A stretch of 64,000 bases of DNA from Synechococcus sp. LTW-R (GTDB taxonomy: Bacteria > Cyanobacteriota > Cyanobacteriia > PCC-6307 > Cyanobiaceae). Positions 48,278-55,888 of this stretch are shown piece by piece. A program made the translations under genes and the position numbers. Every line of letters starts with the position of its first letter. The first letter of the stretch is position 1. The stretch spans positions 2,108,001-2,172,000 of the forward strand of contig NZ_CP059060.1 in assembly GCF_014217875.1 (NCBI RefSeq), in the 5' to 3' direction. The notes beneath the pieces are model-generated. The model made no database searches, was not told the DNA's origin, and worked only from the letters and a program-made list of their open reading frames with translations.

Positions 48278-49250
48278 GCTGTTTGAGGACCTGCTGGGGC
48301 AATCCCAAGCGGTAGCGCTGCTGCGGGCTGGTCTGCAGCAGCAGCGCCTGGCGCCGGCCTATCTGTTCTGCGGTCCCGATGGAGTGGGTCGCCGTTTGGC
48401 GGCCTTGCGCTTCCTGGAGGGAGCCATTGCGGGGCTGGATGGCTCACCTTCGGTGAGACGTCGGCTGCAGGACGGCAACCATCCCGACCTGCTCTGGGTG
48501 GAGCCCACTTATTCGGAGAAGGGACAGTTGGTTCCTGCGTCCCAGGCCGAAGCCGCTGGCGTGAGCCGAAAGGCGCCCCCGCAGCTGCGGCTGGAGCAGG
48601 TCCGGGCCGTCTCCCAGTTTTTGGCCCGCCGGCCGGTGGAGTCCTCCCGTTGCCTGGTGGTGATGGAAACCGTGGAGGCGATGGCCGAAGGAGCCGCCAA
48701 TGCCCTCCTGAAAACCCTCGAGGAACCCGGCGACGGGATGCTGATCCTGCTGACGGCCTACCCGGATCGCCTGCTCAGCACGATTCGCTCGCGCTGTCAG
48801 TCGATTCCCTTTGGGCGGCTGGATCCCCAGACGTTGGAGGCGGTGCTGCAGCGCCATGGCCATGGGGGGATCACCCAGGCTGGTGATCCGCCGGAGTTGC
48901 TCGAACTCGCGGCGGGTTCACCGGGGGCGCTGCTGGAGCAACGGGCGCAATGGCAGTCCCTGCCGGAGGGGTTGACCGATCGCTGCAGTGCGTTTTCGGC
49001 CCCCAATGGTGCGCAGACCCCGATGGTGGCCCTGTCCTTGGCCCGCGATCTCTGTGAGGTGCTGGATGTGGAGCAGCAGCTCTGGCTGCTGGACTGGTGG
49101 CAGCTCCACCTCTGGCGCCAACGGCAGGACCCTTCTCCGCTAAAGCGTCTGGAGCAACTCAGGTCTCAACTGCGCAGTTACGTCCAGCCGCGCTTGGCCT
49201 GGGAGGTGGCGCTGCTGTCGCTTGCGGGGGTGGGATTGGGCAGCGCCTAG
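48270..49250 (+). CDS. holB: DNA polymerase III delta' subunit
   Basis: A clamp-loader subunit of 326 residues. It starts [22 protein letters not shown] and has [22 protein letters not shown], where the Walker A is degenerate as expected for delta'. The sensor region [40 protein letters not shown] and [14 protein letters not shown] are typical AAA+ clamp-loader segments. The ATG at 48270 overlaps the tmk stop. The stop overlaps rpaA tail to tail by 4 bp. Confidence 0.92.
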
Positions 49251-50017
49251 GCGGCGGTGCGGCGGTTGTCTCGGGCCTGTTGCACCAGTTGGGCGAGCGC
49301 TTCCTGGTTGTCTCCACTGGGGAGTTCCAGGCAGTAGCCGGCGCCGTAGACGGTCTTGATGAAGCGGGGCTTGCGGGGATCGGGCTCGAGCTTGGTGCGC
49401 AGGTGCCGCACGTGAACGCGGATGGTTTCGATGTCGTCGTCCGGCTCGTAGCCCCAGACCTCCTTGAGGATCAGTGAGGGGGCAACGGTTTGGCCGTGGC
49501 GCTGCAGGAGGCAGTGGAGCAGCTCGAACTCCAGGTGGGTCAGCCGGACGGGTTCGTCGAACCAGATCGCTTCAAAGCGCTCCGGGACCAGGGTCAGGCA
49601 GCCGTAGCTCAGGATCTCGTTGTGCTTCGTCGAGAGCGGAGCCCGATCGGAGCGGCGCAGGAGCGCCTTGATGCGCACCAGGAGCTCTTCCAGGTCGAAC
49701 GGCTTCGCAAGGTAGTCGTCTGCACCGGAGTTGAAGCCGCTGACCTTGTCCTTGGTGCTGCCCAGGGCCGTCAGCATCAGGACGGGGATGCGGGAGGTGC
49801 GCTCATCACGCCTCAGCCGTTGGCAAAGGGTGAGGCCATCCACCTTGGGCAGCATGAGGTCCAGCAGGACCAGGTCAGGGGTGTATTGCAGGGCCAGGGC
49901 CTGGCCTTTGATGCCGTCCTCGGCCCGTTGCACGTCGAAGCCGCTGTGCTCCAGGTGGCCGGCCACAAGCTCGCGCATGTCGCCGTCGTCTTCGATCAGC
50001 AGGATGCATGGCTTCAT
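49247..50017 (-). CDS. rpaA: Circadian-output response regulator RpaA
   Basis: An OmpR/PhoB-type regulator of 256 residues that is the main output of the Kai clock through SasA/CikA phosphorylation (known in Synechococcus elongatus). The phosphoacceptor is D53 ([13 protein letters not shown]). The DNA-binding domain has [20 protein letters not shown], then the [20 protein letters not shown] segment. The start [11 protein letters not shown] matches RpaA proteins; the frame extends 48 codons upstream but this is leader. The leader holds overlapping inverted repeats. Convergent with holB, 4-bp overlap. Confidence 0.95.
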
Positions 50018-50285
50018 GACTGGTTCCTGGGTTGACGGATGCGCGGTTGCAGTGAAGGGCCGAAGTTCACCGCCGGTATTCTCCGTGGCTTTTTGTGCTT
50101 CTGCACAACAAGCCTTCCGCTTGTTGTGGCCTGGAAGTCTTGCTGAACCTAGGGCTCGCAACGGGTTTGCCTGAATCGCGCCCGCCGCGATGGCGCGGAA
50201 TCTTCAGGTTTTCTTTCGTCTTTTGGGTTGCGGATCTCGGCCGTTTGTTGTGAAGCGTGTTCCGCCTTCCCTTGGGCTCCAAGCA
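50018..50285 (-). promoter_or_regulatory. Long upstream region of rpaA
   Basis: This 268-bp stretch between the tRNA-Asn terminator and rpaA holds no convincing gene. It contains the octamer TTGTTGTG at 50121-50128 and 50245-50252 (plus strand), and its inverse CACAACAA at 50104-50111. The octamer repeats could be an operator, and the hairpin pair lies within it. No clear -10/-35 pair was found by eye. Confidence 0.4.
50093..50128 (-). promoter_or_regulatory. Two overlapping, mutually exclusive hairpins upstream of rpaA
   Basis: On the minus (rpaA) strand a perfect 10-bp stem CACAACAAGC-ggaag-GCTTGTTGTG (50128 to 50104) is followed by TTGTGC-agaa-GCACAA (50108 to 50093). The two share the segment TTGTG, so only one can form. 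They lie 76-111 nt before the rpaA ATG. The arrangement resembles leader switches, but there is no U run after either hairpin. Confidence 0.45.
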
Positions 50286-52614: not shown

Positions 52615-54285
52615 TCAACTCAGTTCACGCGTCGCGTGATCCTTTGGCGCCCCCTCGGGGGCGCTTTTTGATGTCTCTGGATCGGCCGCCTCAAAGAGGA
52701 GCTGTTCATGGCTGAATCCGCTGGGGTCCCACCAGCTCAGGTCGGCTGAGCGGTAGGCCAGCACGTTGAACATGCCGCGGATGTGGTGATAGCTGATATG
52801 GCAATGGAAGGCCCAGATCCCGGGGTGGATGGCATCGAAGGCAATCCGGCAGCGACCGCCTTTGGGCACCAACACGGTGTCCCGCATCGGGCCCGACAAC
52901 GGTTGGCCGTCGATTTCAACGACTTGGAATTCGTGGCCATGCAGATGCATGGGATGGCCCATCGGGGTCGGATTGCTGAAGACCATCTCGACCCGTTGCC
53001 CGTCTTCCACCCAATAGGGGTCGCGGTAGGGATAGAAGCGATCGTTCAGCCCCCAGCGATAGGAGGGGGCGGGTCCCGTGAGGGCAACGGGAATGGTGTT
53101 GTCGGCGGCCTTGCTGGGTAGGGGCCGCTTGGCCCTGAGTTGCTGGTCCTGGGTGAAGTCGAGCTGGCCGGTCCATTGCTCGGTTTGCGGTGCCAATGGG
53201 GGCACGGTCTGCCCGGGGGCGCTGCGCAGGACGACGCCGCAGCGCAGATTGCTTTGCTCCCCCCAAGCCAGCATGGGAAAGACGCCGGGTGTCTCCGGTA
53301 AGCGGATCCTCAGGCTGAGCCGTTGGGCGACGGCGAGTTGGAAGACCGATCCCCGGATCGGTTCCACGGGGTTGGCATCGGTGCGCAGGAGCTCGCCCTC
53401 CAGTTCGCCCAGGTCGAGGAAGAAATTCATGAAGGCGCTGGCGGCGATCCAGCGAATGGCCACGGTCTCCCCTGGCTTCACATCGATGATCTGCGGCGCA
53501 TCGAGGGAGCGGTCATTGGCCAAGAGGGCGTCATAGACGACATCGGGCAGCATCAACTGACCGGCTTCACGCTTCCAGTTGAACCGTTCCTTCACTGGAT
53601 CCCAGCCCTGGGTGAGCAGGGGCCGTTCGGCCTGCCAATCAAATCCCCGCAGGCTGCGGGCCATGGCGGTGTCGCCGCCGCGTTGGCCAGCGACGACGTT
53701 CTTCAAGATCGTGTTCGCCGGCGTGAAGCTGAAATCCCGCAGCGTCACCGTGACGGTTTGATCGGCCCAGGCGTCCTGCTCCTCGCTGAGGATCAAGAAG
53801 GGTTCAGCGACAAAGCTTTGGGTCTGCAGCCCGTAATGGGAGTGCATCCAGAAGGTCCCGTCCTGTTGGAGGGGGTAGTGAATGCGTTGCCGCTCCCCCG
53901 GCGGGATGGGGGGTTGGGTCACATAGGGCACCCCATCCATGGGATTGGGAAGGATCAGGCCATGCCAGTGCACCGTCGTGGGAACCGGCAGCTGGTTGAC
54001 CAGTTCCAGATCCACCCCTTGCTCCCGTCGGGTGATGTAGCCCCGTTGGCCATTCCGTTGCCGGATGCAGCCCCGTTGCACGGTCCGGCCGAGCACGGTG
54101 ATCGGTGCCGTGCCGATCTCGAGCACGGTGGTGTTTCGGTTCAGGGGGCGCCGGAAGCTGGCCTGGCTGACGAACCGTTCCCAGCTGTTTTCGGCTTTCG
54201 CTCGGGTGCGGCTGATCCAGGACTGCGTCGAGCTGCCCAGGGCTGCGGCGAGCAGTCCGAGACGAAGGACGGATCGACGACGCAT
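52615..54285 (-). CDS. Multicopper oxidase
   Basis: A 556-residue periplasmic cupredoxin-type oxidase. The N-terminus (MRRRSVLRLG, then a hydrophobic stretch) looks like a Tat or Sec signal. All four copper-binding motifs are present: HWHG (106-109), HSHYG (148-152), HPMHLHGH (444-451) and HCHISYHHIRGM near residue 500, with the type 1 cysteine, histidines and methionine. It could oxidise metal ions or phenols. The last 55 bp include a terminator for the convergent psbD. The intergenic RNA unit lies 82 bp upstream, divergent. Confidence 0.93.
   Translation of the reverse strand: MRRRSVLRLGLLAAALGSSTQSWISRTRAKAENSWERFVSQASFRRPLNRNTTVLEIGTAPITVLGRTVQRGCIRQRNGQRGYITRREQGVDLELVNQLPVPTTVHWHGLILPNPMDGVPYVTQPPIPPGERQRIHYPLQQDGTFWMHSHYGLQTQSFVAEPFLILSEEQDAWADQTVTVTLRDFSFTPANTILKNVVAGQRGGDTAMARSLRGFDWQAERPLLTQGWDPVKERFNWKREAGQLMLPDVVYDALLANDRSLDAPQIIDVKPGETVAIRWIAASAFMNFFLDLGELEGELLRTDANPVEPIRGSVFQLAVAQRLSLRIRLPETPGVFPMLAWGEQSNLRCGVVLRSAPGQTVPPLAPQTEQWTGQLDFTQDQQLRAKRPLPSKAADNTIPVALTGPAPSYRWGLNDRFYPYRDPYWVEDGQRVEMVFSNPTPMGHPMHLHGHEFQVVEIDGQPLSGPMRDTVLVPKGGRCRIAFDAIHPGIWAFHCHISYHHIRGMFNVLAYRSADLSWWDPSGFSHEQLLFEAADPETSKSAPEGAPKDHATRELS
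52647..52669 (+). terminator. Rho-independent terminator of psbD
   Basis: A GC-rich stem GCGCCCCC/GGGGGCGC with a 2- to 4-base loop, followed by TTTTT. It lies 43 bp after the psbD stop and inside the 3' coding end of the multicopper oxidase (encoding the APEGAPKD tail). Confidence 0.85.
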
Positions 54286-54366
54286 CCCTGCAGTCCAACT
54301 GTCCGTTGCTTAGCCAGCCGAAGCGGTGTTGTCGCATTCGCCACGCCGCACTGGGCTCAGCCTCGA

Positions 54367-54372
54367 TAGAAT
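54367..54372 (+). promoter_or_regulatory. Possible -10 box of the intergenic RNA unit
   Basis: TAGAAT in CGATAGAATTTAG resembles the TATAAT consensus. It would put the transcription start near 54380. No good -35 is seen at the expected spacing. Confidence 0.35.
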
Positions 54373-54476
54373 TTAGAGGTACCGTTAGCAGTGATGTGGC
54401 GCCGCAGAACCCTTCGGGCGGAAGCGTTGCCGGATGCATCGCCGGCTGACACCAACCCCCACAGGAGGAGGTGCCC

Positions 54477-54530
54477 GTGTCCCACAGTTGTAAGAAGCAG
54501 GGTCTGCTGATCGCGGAGAACGCCGGCTGA
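54477..54530 (+). CDS. Candidate 17-residue peptide MSHSCKKQGLLIAENAG
   Basis: GTG start behind AGGAGGAGG with ideal spacing, ending in TGA. An in-frame GTG two codons upstream is also possible. The peptide has one cysteine, two lysines and a short hydrophobic stretch. It is far below the size range that normal gene prediction would call. It could be a leader peptide, a small regulatory protein, or an unused frame. Confidence 0.4.
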   Translation: MSHSCKKQGLLIAENAG

Positions 54531-54586
54531 TTTCGGCGCCTCATTCCTAGATCAAACGGTTCCGCGCCAGAGCGGACCCGGCGAGA

Positions 54587-54624
54587 GCCCCCGATTCCTC
54601 TTGAGGAATCGGGGGCATCGTTTT
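54587..54624 (+). terminator. Strong intrinsic terminator downstream of the peptide frame
   Basis: A 13- to 14-bp perfect stem (GCCCCCGATTCCTC with GAGGAATCGGGGGC) with a tiny loop, followed by CATCGTTTT. It lies 56 bp after the peptide stop and 29 bp before the next gene, so it can end a small RNA or attenuate the downstream membrane-protein gene. Confidence 0.8.
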
Positions 54625-54652
54625 GACTGGGTCCTCTCCCTCTGGCCAGTCC

Positions 54653-55888
54653 ATGACGAGCACAAGGCAATCACTGGATTGTCCGGGTTCGCTCTTGATG
54701 CTGCTGGCGGCCGTCATTCAGTTTTTTCGCGCAGGATCCCTCGGACTGGAGTGTTGGGTCCCCGGGCGTTCGCTGACTTTTTGCGTCGATCAGTACTGGG
54801 TCAATCAACTGCTGAAGAACTACGCCGGTGGATTCACCAAGCGCGGTTTTAGCGGCGAGCTGCTGCGGCACCTGTTGCCATCGGGAGTGGATCTGATTGA
54901 GCTCAACGTCTTCGCCTTGCTGCTCTTCATGGCTCTGGCGTTGTTGCTGTATGCCGTTGTGCGCACGCTGCTCGGGCGCTCCGGTTGGGCGCCACTGCTG
55001 ATCAGCCTCTTGCTGATGTTCGCGCCCTTTGGCAAGTCCCTGGCGGAGACAGCCTTGGATCCGCTGCAGCTCTGTTTGCTGCTGGTGGCTTCGGTGCTGT
55101 TGACCCCTGCTCAAAGCCGAGCGCGAGATGCGGTCGTGTTGGTCTCCTTTGTTCTCGCCGCCTTGATCTATGAGGGCTGCGCCCTGCTGCTCTTGCCAGT
55201 CGGTTTCTGGTTGATGCGAGCGACCCTTTGGCGCTGGCTCCCCCTGGCGCTGGCGGCCGCGTTGCTGCTGGTGTTCCAGCAACCCGATGCACCGAGCGTC
55301 GGGCAGGCGGCGCGGGAGGCCTTGGTGGCGGTTAATCCCCTCACCGGTGAGCAACTGCGCTACAGGGATGGCGGTGGCTTGGCCGCCTCGGTGAGTTTCA
55401 GCTTCAACGTGAAGCAGGAGTTCAGCCGCTATCTCTCTGATTCGCCCCGAGAGACGTTGTCACGGATGGCACGTTCCTTGGGTGCCGTGCTGGTTTATGG
55501 CATTGCGCTGTTGACGGCCATGGCGGAACGCAGACCCGCTGAACGCAGCCTGGGCATTCGGGTCTGGCTTCTCTGGGTGCCTGTGGCCTTGCCCTTCGTC
55601 TTGATCACCCATGACTGGCTGCGGTACGGCGTGATCCTGTTGCTCCTGGCGATGGTGGTGACGGCCGCCCAATGCCCGCCGCGCCCGCTCGAGTCAGGTC
55701 CGATGACGCGGCCCGAGTGGCTCGCGAGCGGCCTGATCGCGATGGCGGTAGCCGTGGGGCCCGCCACGGGTGATGTCCGGAAATTCCTGCCCCACAACTA
55801 TTTCCACGCCTCCCTGCTGATGCTGCTGGTGGCGCTGGCGGTGCTGCTGATCGAGCAACGCCGACTCAAGATTCAGCAGAACGGCTGA
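54653..55888 (+). CDS. Polytopic membrane protein of unknown function
   Basis: A 411-residue protein with about ten hydrophobic segments. The segment CVDQYWVNQLLKNYAGGFTKRGFSG, then ELLRHLLPSGVDL, sits in the first loop. It is not one of the families I recognise, but the position beside glycosyltransferases suggests a role in surface polysaccharide (for example a polymerase). The ATG at 54653 is the best start. It ends 23 bp inside the opposite-strand YbhN-type gene. Confidence 0.6.
   Translation: MTSTRQSLDCPGSLLMLLAAVIQFFRAGSLGLECWVPGRSLTFCVDQYWVNQLLKNYAGGFTKRGFSGELLRHLLPSGVDLIELNVFALLLFMALALLLYAVVRTLLGRSGWAPLLISLLLMFAPFGKSLAETALDPLQLCLLLVASVLLTPAQSRARDAVVLVSFVLAALIYEGCALLLLPVGFWLMRATLWRWLPLALAAALLLVFQQPDAPSVGQAAREALVAVNPLTGEQLRYRDGGGLAASVSFSFNVKQEFSRYLSDSPRETLSRMARSLGAVLVYGIALLTAMAERRPAERSLGIRVWLLWVPVALPFVLITHDWLRYGVILLLLAMVVTAAQCPPRPLESGPMTRPEWLASGLIAMAVAVGPATGDVRKFLPHNYFHASLLMLLVALAVLLIEQRRLKIQQNG

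Follow-up and report, generated by a model that had tools for sequence, protein, structure and literature searches.

The locus at positions 54367–54624 of the Synechococcus sp. LTW-R sequence raises the question of what a very short open reading frame does when it lies between an RNA hairpin and a terminator: whether its peptide is the product, whether it controls a neighboring gene, or whether it forms part of an RNA that acts by itself. The window, i.e. the whole stretch of 64,000 nt that was analysed, belongs to a genome that consists of a single contig of 2,415,533 bases. The unit is intergenic, with a divergent multicopper oxidase gene on one side (positions 52615–54285, with a Pfam Cu-oxidase match) and a 421-residue frame of the same strand on the other; a Pfam scan of this frame gave no match. 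A first-pass annotation had proposed a ligand-controlled small peptide or an attenuator, with a layout resembling that of the glutamine-II riboswitch class.

Anatomy of the intergenic unit

The features of the unit are collected in Table 1. The TAGAAT box, the hairpin-rich segment, the ideal ribosome site, the GTG frame of 17 codons and the 13-pair terminator with its T run, all listed in the first-pass annotation, are present and recur in homologs. A TANNNT box is found 95–125 nt before the start of the frame in 105 of 118 homologs, as against 38 ± 5 (maximum 54) in shuffled sequences; a consensus promoter scan of positions 53800–55200 gave no sigma-70-type site. The whole unit (249 nt) folds better than nearly all shuffled versions, 1 of 200 giving an equally good fold (z = −3.6), and the leader alone is not exceptional, with 16 of 200 shuffles as good (z = −1.4). 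The core contains near-invariant stretches, e.g. GGGTCTGCTGATCGCGGAGAA and GCGGACCCGGCGAGAGCC.

Table 1. Features of the intergenic unit (positions in the window)
Feature	Position	Strand	Basis or remark
-10-like box TAGAAT	54367–54372	+	sequence; no -35 box found
Predicted transcript, ~245 nt	54379–54624	+	start predicted from -10 box, end from terminator
5′ hairpin (P1–P3)	54384–54450	+	covariation across 22 sequences
Hairpin P1	54384–54389/54444–54450	+	part of 5′ hairpin
Hairpin P2	54391–54397/54436–54442	+	part of 5′ hairpin
Hairpin P3	54398–54403/54426–54431	+	3′ bulge 54432–54435, variable loop
Shine-Dalgarno region AGGAGGAGGTGCC	54463–54475	+	contains AGGAGGAGG at 54463–54471
17-codon frame GTG...TGA, MSHSCKKQGLLIAENAG	54477–54530	+	17 codons plus TGA
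Proposed rod	54500–54579	+	3′ half of frame pairs with sequence 3′ of stop
Rod R1	54500–54507/54572–54579	+	pairing conservation
Rod R2	54512–54517/54561–54566	+	pairing conservation
Rod R3	54522–54525/54557–54560	+	pairing conservation
Rod R4	54528–54531/54551–54554	+	pairing conservation
Loop 3′ of stop	54531–54549	+	54535–54541 complementary to 54469–54475 and beyond
Terminator region	54580–54624	+	13-pair stem 54587–54616, then ATCGTTTT
Terminator lower stem	54580–54584/54618–54622	+	conserved, across internal loop, then TTTT

A search of the whole window with Rfam at its own thresholds found tRNA-Asn alone and nothing at the unit. At E ≤ 10, positions 54100–54900 show five weak matches far under the cut-offs, none of them to a metabolite class; the best of them is Pseudomon-1 with 20.9 bits against a cut-off of 50. 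The proposed glutamine-II or glutamine class is contradicted by these searches, as neither RF01704 nor RF01739 matches at gathering in the window or at E ≤ 10 in 54100–54900. Elsewhere in the source genome the searches returned two RF01704 matches above threshold, one RF01739 match below the cut-off and one 6S RNA, and thus they are capable of finding such RNAs. The 6S RNA model (RF00013) does not match at the unit, nor does tmRNA with either ARAGORN or Rfam. A type I toxin was also considered, and no hydrophobic membrane span is seen, as judged by eye, in the homolog peptides.

Secondary structure and covariation

A scan of all column pairs in the homolog alignment gives its highest ranks to the terminator and the 5′ hairpin, and the covarying pairs that the first-pass annotation suggested looking for in related genomes are found strongly in both. 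In the 5′ hairpin (22 sequences), 94.7% of cells are paired and 67 are double-change cells; none of 500 shuffles scores as high, and slid versions show 32–57% paired. Conserved bulges lie within these covarying stems. The terminator gives 94.5% paired with 370 double-change cells, as against 63–116 in slid versions. Its lower stem, which draws on part of the terminator's own T-run, is 98.7% paired with 6 double-change cells against 0–5.

The proposed rod is of a different character. R1–R3 show 97–98% of cells paired as opposed to 11–65% in slid versions, and R4 shows 88%, with slid versions again lower. Double-change cells number 6, 4, 5 and 1 for R1–R4, and 0–5, 0–3 and 0–6 for slid R1–R3. 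The rod sequence is nearly fixed and therefore offers few double changes, so that the rod is supported by conservation and not by covariation. With nested folding of a piece that begins 14 nt before the start codon, leader excluded, the probability of R1 exceeds 0.5 in 66 of 106 homologs (12 of the 118 were dropped for lack of an anchor) and is 0.14 in the source genome. A local hairpin, 54558–54565/54572–54578, is about 97% paired, as is the rod. A two-state switch between this hairpin and the rod was considered and rejected, the hairpin exceeding 0.5 in none of 106 homologs when folded freely and in one when a ribosome occupies the stop codon.

Complementarity of the ribosome site

The first-pass annotation had noted that GACAC (54448–54452) can pair with GTGTC (54477–54481), by which the leader could hide the start. 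The two segments are complementary in the source genome; the pairing is not conserved. As a switch it was rejected, since its 65% of paired cells is owed to the invariant start codon and a slid version reaches 60%. The pairs 54448–54481 and 54449–54480 are mostly mismatched across homologs. Cells changed on both sides number 47, compared with 4–33 in slid versions, and are ascribed to variation of 54448–54449 within P1, the covarying stem to which the left bases of GACAC belong.

The broader notion of a hidden start fares better in one respect: the ribosome site does have complementary partners, of which the most consistent is the loop 3′ of the stop codon and not the leader GACAC. When the loop (stop codon to GATC) is set against the 14 nt before the start, the mean duplex is −14.5 kcal/mol as opposed to −9.3 kcal/mol for shuffled sequences, and reaches −22.3 kcal/mol in the source genome. 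Of 111 homologs (7 of 118 were dropped from this test), 66 have a duplex with p ≤ 0.05, against 9 of 118 for a control stretch of the leader. As a partner of the loop the ribosome site outdoes all other 5′ windows in only 60 of 111. Complementarity is retained by the divergent loops of L083 and L132, and is missing from those of L087, L103 and L114. Nested folds, in which pseudoknots are not representable, pair the ribosome site with the leader at 0.43, with codons 1–8 at 0.13 and with the loop at 0.09. There is thus some support for a start that could be hidden by pairing, with the most consistent candidate partner situated 3′ of the frame.

The 17-codon open reading frame

The homolog set was drawn from 219 loci, which gave 156 distinct copies, 145 complete enough for use, and 119 representatives with less than 93% identity. 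Frames could be parsed in 150 of the 156 copies; the other six were omitted, being cut or having the ribosome site too close to the left end. Of the 119 representatives, 118 have a frame of exactly 17 codons behind the ribosome site, L100 and L115 being counted among them with 17 codons each; in L112, the sole exception, one base is deleted. The start codon of the 118 is ATG in 64 and GTG in 54, and the stop codon is TGA in 109, TAG in 6 and TAA in 3. The distance from the end of GGAGG to the start codon is 5 nt in 114 of 118 homologs, and each of the columns 54467–54473 shows the same base in at least 118 of the 119 sequences. The copies with TAG in place of TGA (L105, L108–L111 and L118) have an unchanged 17-codon frame, and those among them whose 3′ part was viewed show it shortened.

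Frame +1 is interrupted within the span in 114 of 118 homologs, frame +2 in 15. As frame +2 is mostly open, openness alone is weak proof of a coding frame; it is the ribosome site, the start, the length and the exchangeable stops that argue for translation.

The amino acid sequence presents a mixed picture. The peptide core is QGLLIAENA, and codons 9–14 and 16 encode G, L, L, I, A, E and A in 106–118 of 118. Residues 2, 3, 6, 7 and 17 are widely variable, Cys5 is kept in 79 of 118, and codons 2, 3, 6 and 7 drift while codon number is constant. Codons 10–11 depart from CTG 19 times, 10 of them silently. Ser4 is encoded by AGT in 115 of 118, and serine at codon 2 by AGT, AGC or TCC; the fixity of the Ser4 codon points to a nucleotide rather than an amino acid constraint. 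Computed over all sequence pairs with no tree, pN/pS is 1.11 for codons 2–17, 0.80 for codons 2–7 and 0.70 for codons 9–16, so that the synonymous-only change suggested as a check in the first-pass annotation is not what is found. RNA constraint depresses silent change, and a value near 1 is therefore compatible with a functional peptide. Residues do not appear specially protected beyond their nucleotides, and translation as such may be more important than the peptide it yields.

Distribution among genomes

A covariance model of the core (model R1), built from 24 sequences, finds the unit in 204 of 400 Cyanobiaceae genomes, and in 146 of the 251 that are at least 90% complete with no more than 5% contamination. 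One match is present in 200 of the 204 carriers and two in G057, G279, G349 and G380; the source genome has a single core match even at E ≤ 10. Six of 25 genomes of the same genus have no core match, and five compact genomes (1.7–1.9 Mb), picked because they were match-free, still show none with laxer filters. In 77 further genomes, searched with the core model under stricter filters, matches are found in two of the five Cyanobiaceae included and in none of the 72 genomes of other families.

Blastn gave matches in 42 of 99 genomes, two of these being short marginal matches outside the family, and many matches contain a conserved block of about 165 nt. In a collection of bacterial and archaeal genomes, 111 stretches contain an exact 24-mer of the core. 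For 80 of the 111 stretches, 79 titles are cyanobacterial and one is Bifidobacterium; the matches listed include Synechococcus WH7803, RCC307 and WH 5701, Prochlorococcus MIT 0701 and several Cyanobium. The exception, a contig titled as a Bifidobacterium breve MAG (L143), carries this cyanobacterial unit and is probably mislabelled or from a contaminated bin. Neither phage records searched by blastn nor viral contigs searched with an exact 20-mer match the unit.

The second copy in G057 (L229, G057:C1:2023847-2023974), about 5.3 kb from the intact one, is decayed: the ribosome site is lost, a stop is found at codon 3, and the rod and terminator are partly kept. In several draft assemblies (among them L038, L048, L053 and L105) the unit is situated 250–500 nt from a contig end. 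The psbD gene is multi-copy and lies directly upstream of the unit in some genomes, and perhaps it is this gene that breaks the assemblies.

Neighboring genes

Neighbors were taken as the longest frames around the unit and counted only where they had a Pfam match; those of L070 and L072 included antisense artefacts. Sixteen of 20 loci were scanned for the next gene, with L068, L069, L073 and L079 left out (the frame at L068 is convergent). Ten of the 16 have a convergent next gene, namely seven DUF2079, two PMT_2 and one acyltransferase. In the other 6 of 16 an OprB porin lies downstream on the same strand; the longest frame of this porin begins 127–319 nt behind the first base of the core. 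In L078, three frames of the same cluster are found in tandem behind the unit, the first being an OprB porin with an SLH domain.

Upstream, 14 of 20 loci have psbD on the strand of the unit, 179–5670 nt before the core. A homolog of the response-regulator gene of the window (49247–50161), which on our reading is RpaB-like, is likewise upstream in 14 of 20. In L066 and L067 the position of the divergent oxidase is held by a frame that resembles a copper P-type ATPase, as judged from one member of the cluster.

A model of the 5′ hairpin (model R2) was searched in 40 genomes, 25 of them of the source genus. Matches of at least 47 bits occur at the unit only; all others are at or below 23 bits and at unrelated places. 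The source genome has one weak second match (G000:C1:79898-79975, 23.1 bits, rough E = 7e-4). That strong matches are confined to the unit argues against an aptamer reused at several genes, not against a single-use one.

Discussion

The explanation that appears best, to which we assign about an even chance, is that the unit is a stand-alone RNA gene of ~245 nt whose product would be both a small mRNA and a structured RNA, folding on itself and gated by its own 3′ part. Comparison of homologs shows the hairpin, the terminator, a conserved frame and a loop complementary to the ribosome site; from these we infer transcription, translation, a rod that forms in the cell, gating and action in trans. 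Behind the 5′ hairpin would come the near-perfect ribosome site and the frame with its constant 17 codons, whose 3′ half would fold with the sequence behind the stop codon into the rod. The tip loop of this rod could pair back to the ribosome site. A ribosome that loads early would open the rod, and an untranslated RNA would close on itself and shut its own ribosome site. The RNA, which probably acts in trans, would then report through its shape and stability whether the frame is translated or not. Vertical inheritance within the Cyanobiaceae belongs to this explanation and shares the evenly balanced standing of the whole.

Single matches in 200 of 204 carriers, the constant frame length with a pN/pS of about 1.1, the replacement of start and stop codons by valid ones only, the covarying hairpin and terminator, the pairing of R1–R3, the complementarity of loop and ribosome site, the convergent next gene in 10 of 16 relatives and the loss of ribosome site and frame together in the decayed G057 copy support this explanation. 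Against it, double changes in the rod are not clearly above those of slid versions, R1 has a low folding probability in the source genome, nested folds pair the ribosome site more with the leader than with the loop, frame +2 is mostly open as well, and the alternative 3′ hairpin is almost never predicted.

Other readings of the same features have to be weighed. If the unit were a micropeptide gene, the 17-residue peptide would be the product and the folds would merely regulate its mRNA. The ideal ribosome site, the exact frame in 118 of 119, the conservation of codons 9–14 and 16, the silent departures from CTG at codons 10–11 and the pN/pS of 0.70 over codons 9–16 fit such a gene; the overall pN/pS of 1.11, the variation at residues 2, 3, 6, 7 and 17, the partial retention of Cys5 and the fixed AGT at Ser4 do not, and we regard it as rather unlikely, at something like one chance in four. 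The opposite view takes the unit as a plain trans-acting regulatory RNA with an incidental frame. It draws on the near-invariant stretches and on a frame +2 that is open in 103 of 118; in 118 of 119, however, the ribosome site, the start, the length and a valid stop codon are all maintained, which an incidental frame would not do, and this view is very improbable.

Two further readings place the frame under or in front of a regulatory switch. A riboswitch of a new class, with the 5′ hairpin as the aptamer that controls the 17-codon frame, would be expected to show conserved bulges inside covarying stems, as this hairpin does. The weak Rfam matches at E ≤ 10 include no metabolite class, and the hairpin is found with at least 47 bits at the unit alone in 40 genomes; such a riboswitch is improbable. 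Still less probable, and clearly unlikely, is a leader-peptide attenuator of the next gene, in which movement of the ribosome over the 17 codons would decide whether the terminator forms. Its anatomy is similar, with a short frame, alternative pairings and a terminator, and the source genome has its next gene on the same strand, as have 6 of the 16 relatives, where it is an OprB porin. The convergent neighbors in the remaining 10 count against it, and so does the position of the terminator stem, which starts at 54580, past the end of the rod at 54579 and past the alternative hairpin, so that no helix examined overlaps a terminator arm. The attenuator of the first-pass annotation can thus hardly be upheld.

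To return to the stand-alone RNA gene, a more specific and tentative proposal, which we think possible though doubtful, is that the 17-codon frame serves as a module for both structure and sensing. The RNA would measure translation and not the peptide, and the loop behind the stop would be an anti-ribosome-site, closing the RNA as translation slows. If this is true, the unit would be a new kind of RNA, by which picocyanobacteria sense translation with a stand-alone element. Conservation of an exact frame length with no special protection of residues is unusual, and it separates the peptide from the act of translation in a way that can be tested. Picocyanobacteria perform a large share of marine photosynthesis, and the unit is present in 204 of 400 sampled Cyanobiaceae species yet stands outside every Rfam family.

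Comparison with known systems

The glutamine-II and glutamine riboswitches are picocyanobacterial RNAs situated before a short frame, with a ribosome site that may be shut by a pseudoknot. The unit shares with them (RF01704, RF01739) a picocyanobacterial RNA ahead of a short frame and possibly a pseudoknot-shut ribosome site. It differs in that their models do not match and that the candidate shutting loop lies behind the stop codon.

In the passages of the literature surveyed, an RNA of this sort with a 17-codon frame is nowhere described, and the unit may carry an earlier name; the portions consulted of PMC7368042 contain nothing on it. Cluster 229 of Axmann et al. (2005), 161 nt in length, was listed, as an untested candidate, under "putative ncRNAs" from MIT 9313 and WH 8102 and not from MED4 or SS120 (PMC1242208). 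Its length is near that of the ~165-nt block, and the unit is found in WH7803, RCC307 and MIT 0701 and is missing from compact genomes. Unlike the unit, cluster 229 is given with no mention of a frame in the table of that paper (PMC1242208). The unit may be cluster 229; this is a guess from length and strain range.

Yfr103 is described as a structured conserved ncRNA of marine Synechococcus and Prochlorococcus, 290–328 nt long, with seven paralogs in CC9605 (PMC5069720). The unit is likewise a conserved structured RNA of picocyanobacteria; going by that description it would be set apart by its predicted length of ~245 nt and by one match in 200 of 204 genomes. Yfr6 is reported as a structured RNA of about 244 nt with a central short frame of 33 residues, present in Prochlorococcus MED4 and SS120 and absent from WH 8102 and MIT 9313 by Northern blot (PMC1242208, PMC2518516). 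As so described, it resembles the unit as a structured RNA of nearly the same length with a short frame, and differs in the size of that frame (33 residues, as opposed to 17) and in distribution.

Dual-function small RNAs such as SgrS/SgrT, RNAIII and Spot 42 have their own promoter and terminator, are structured and carry a short translated frame. SgrS and RNAIII are named in the part of PMC2518516 consulted. The unit appears similar to this group in its conserved promoter- and terminator-like signals, its predicted structured RNA and its putative translated short frame. Unlike in these RNAs, the frame of the unit is itself part of the conserved fold, and its length is constant.
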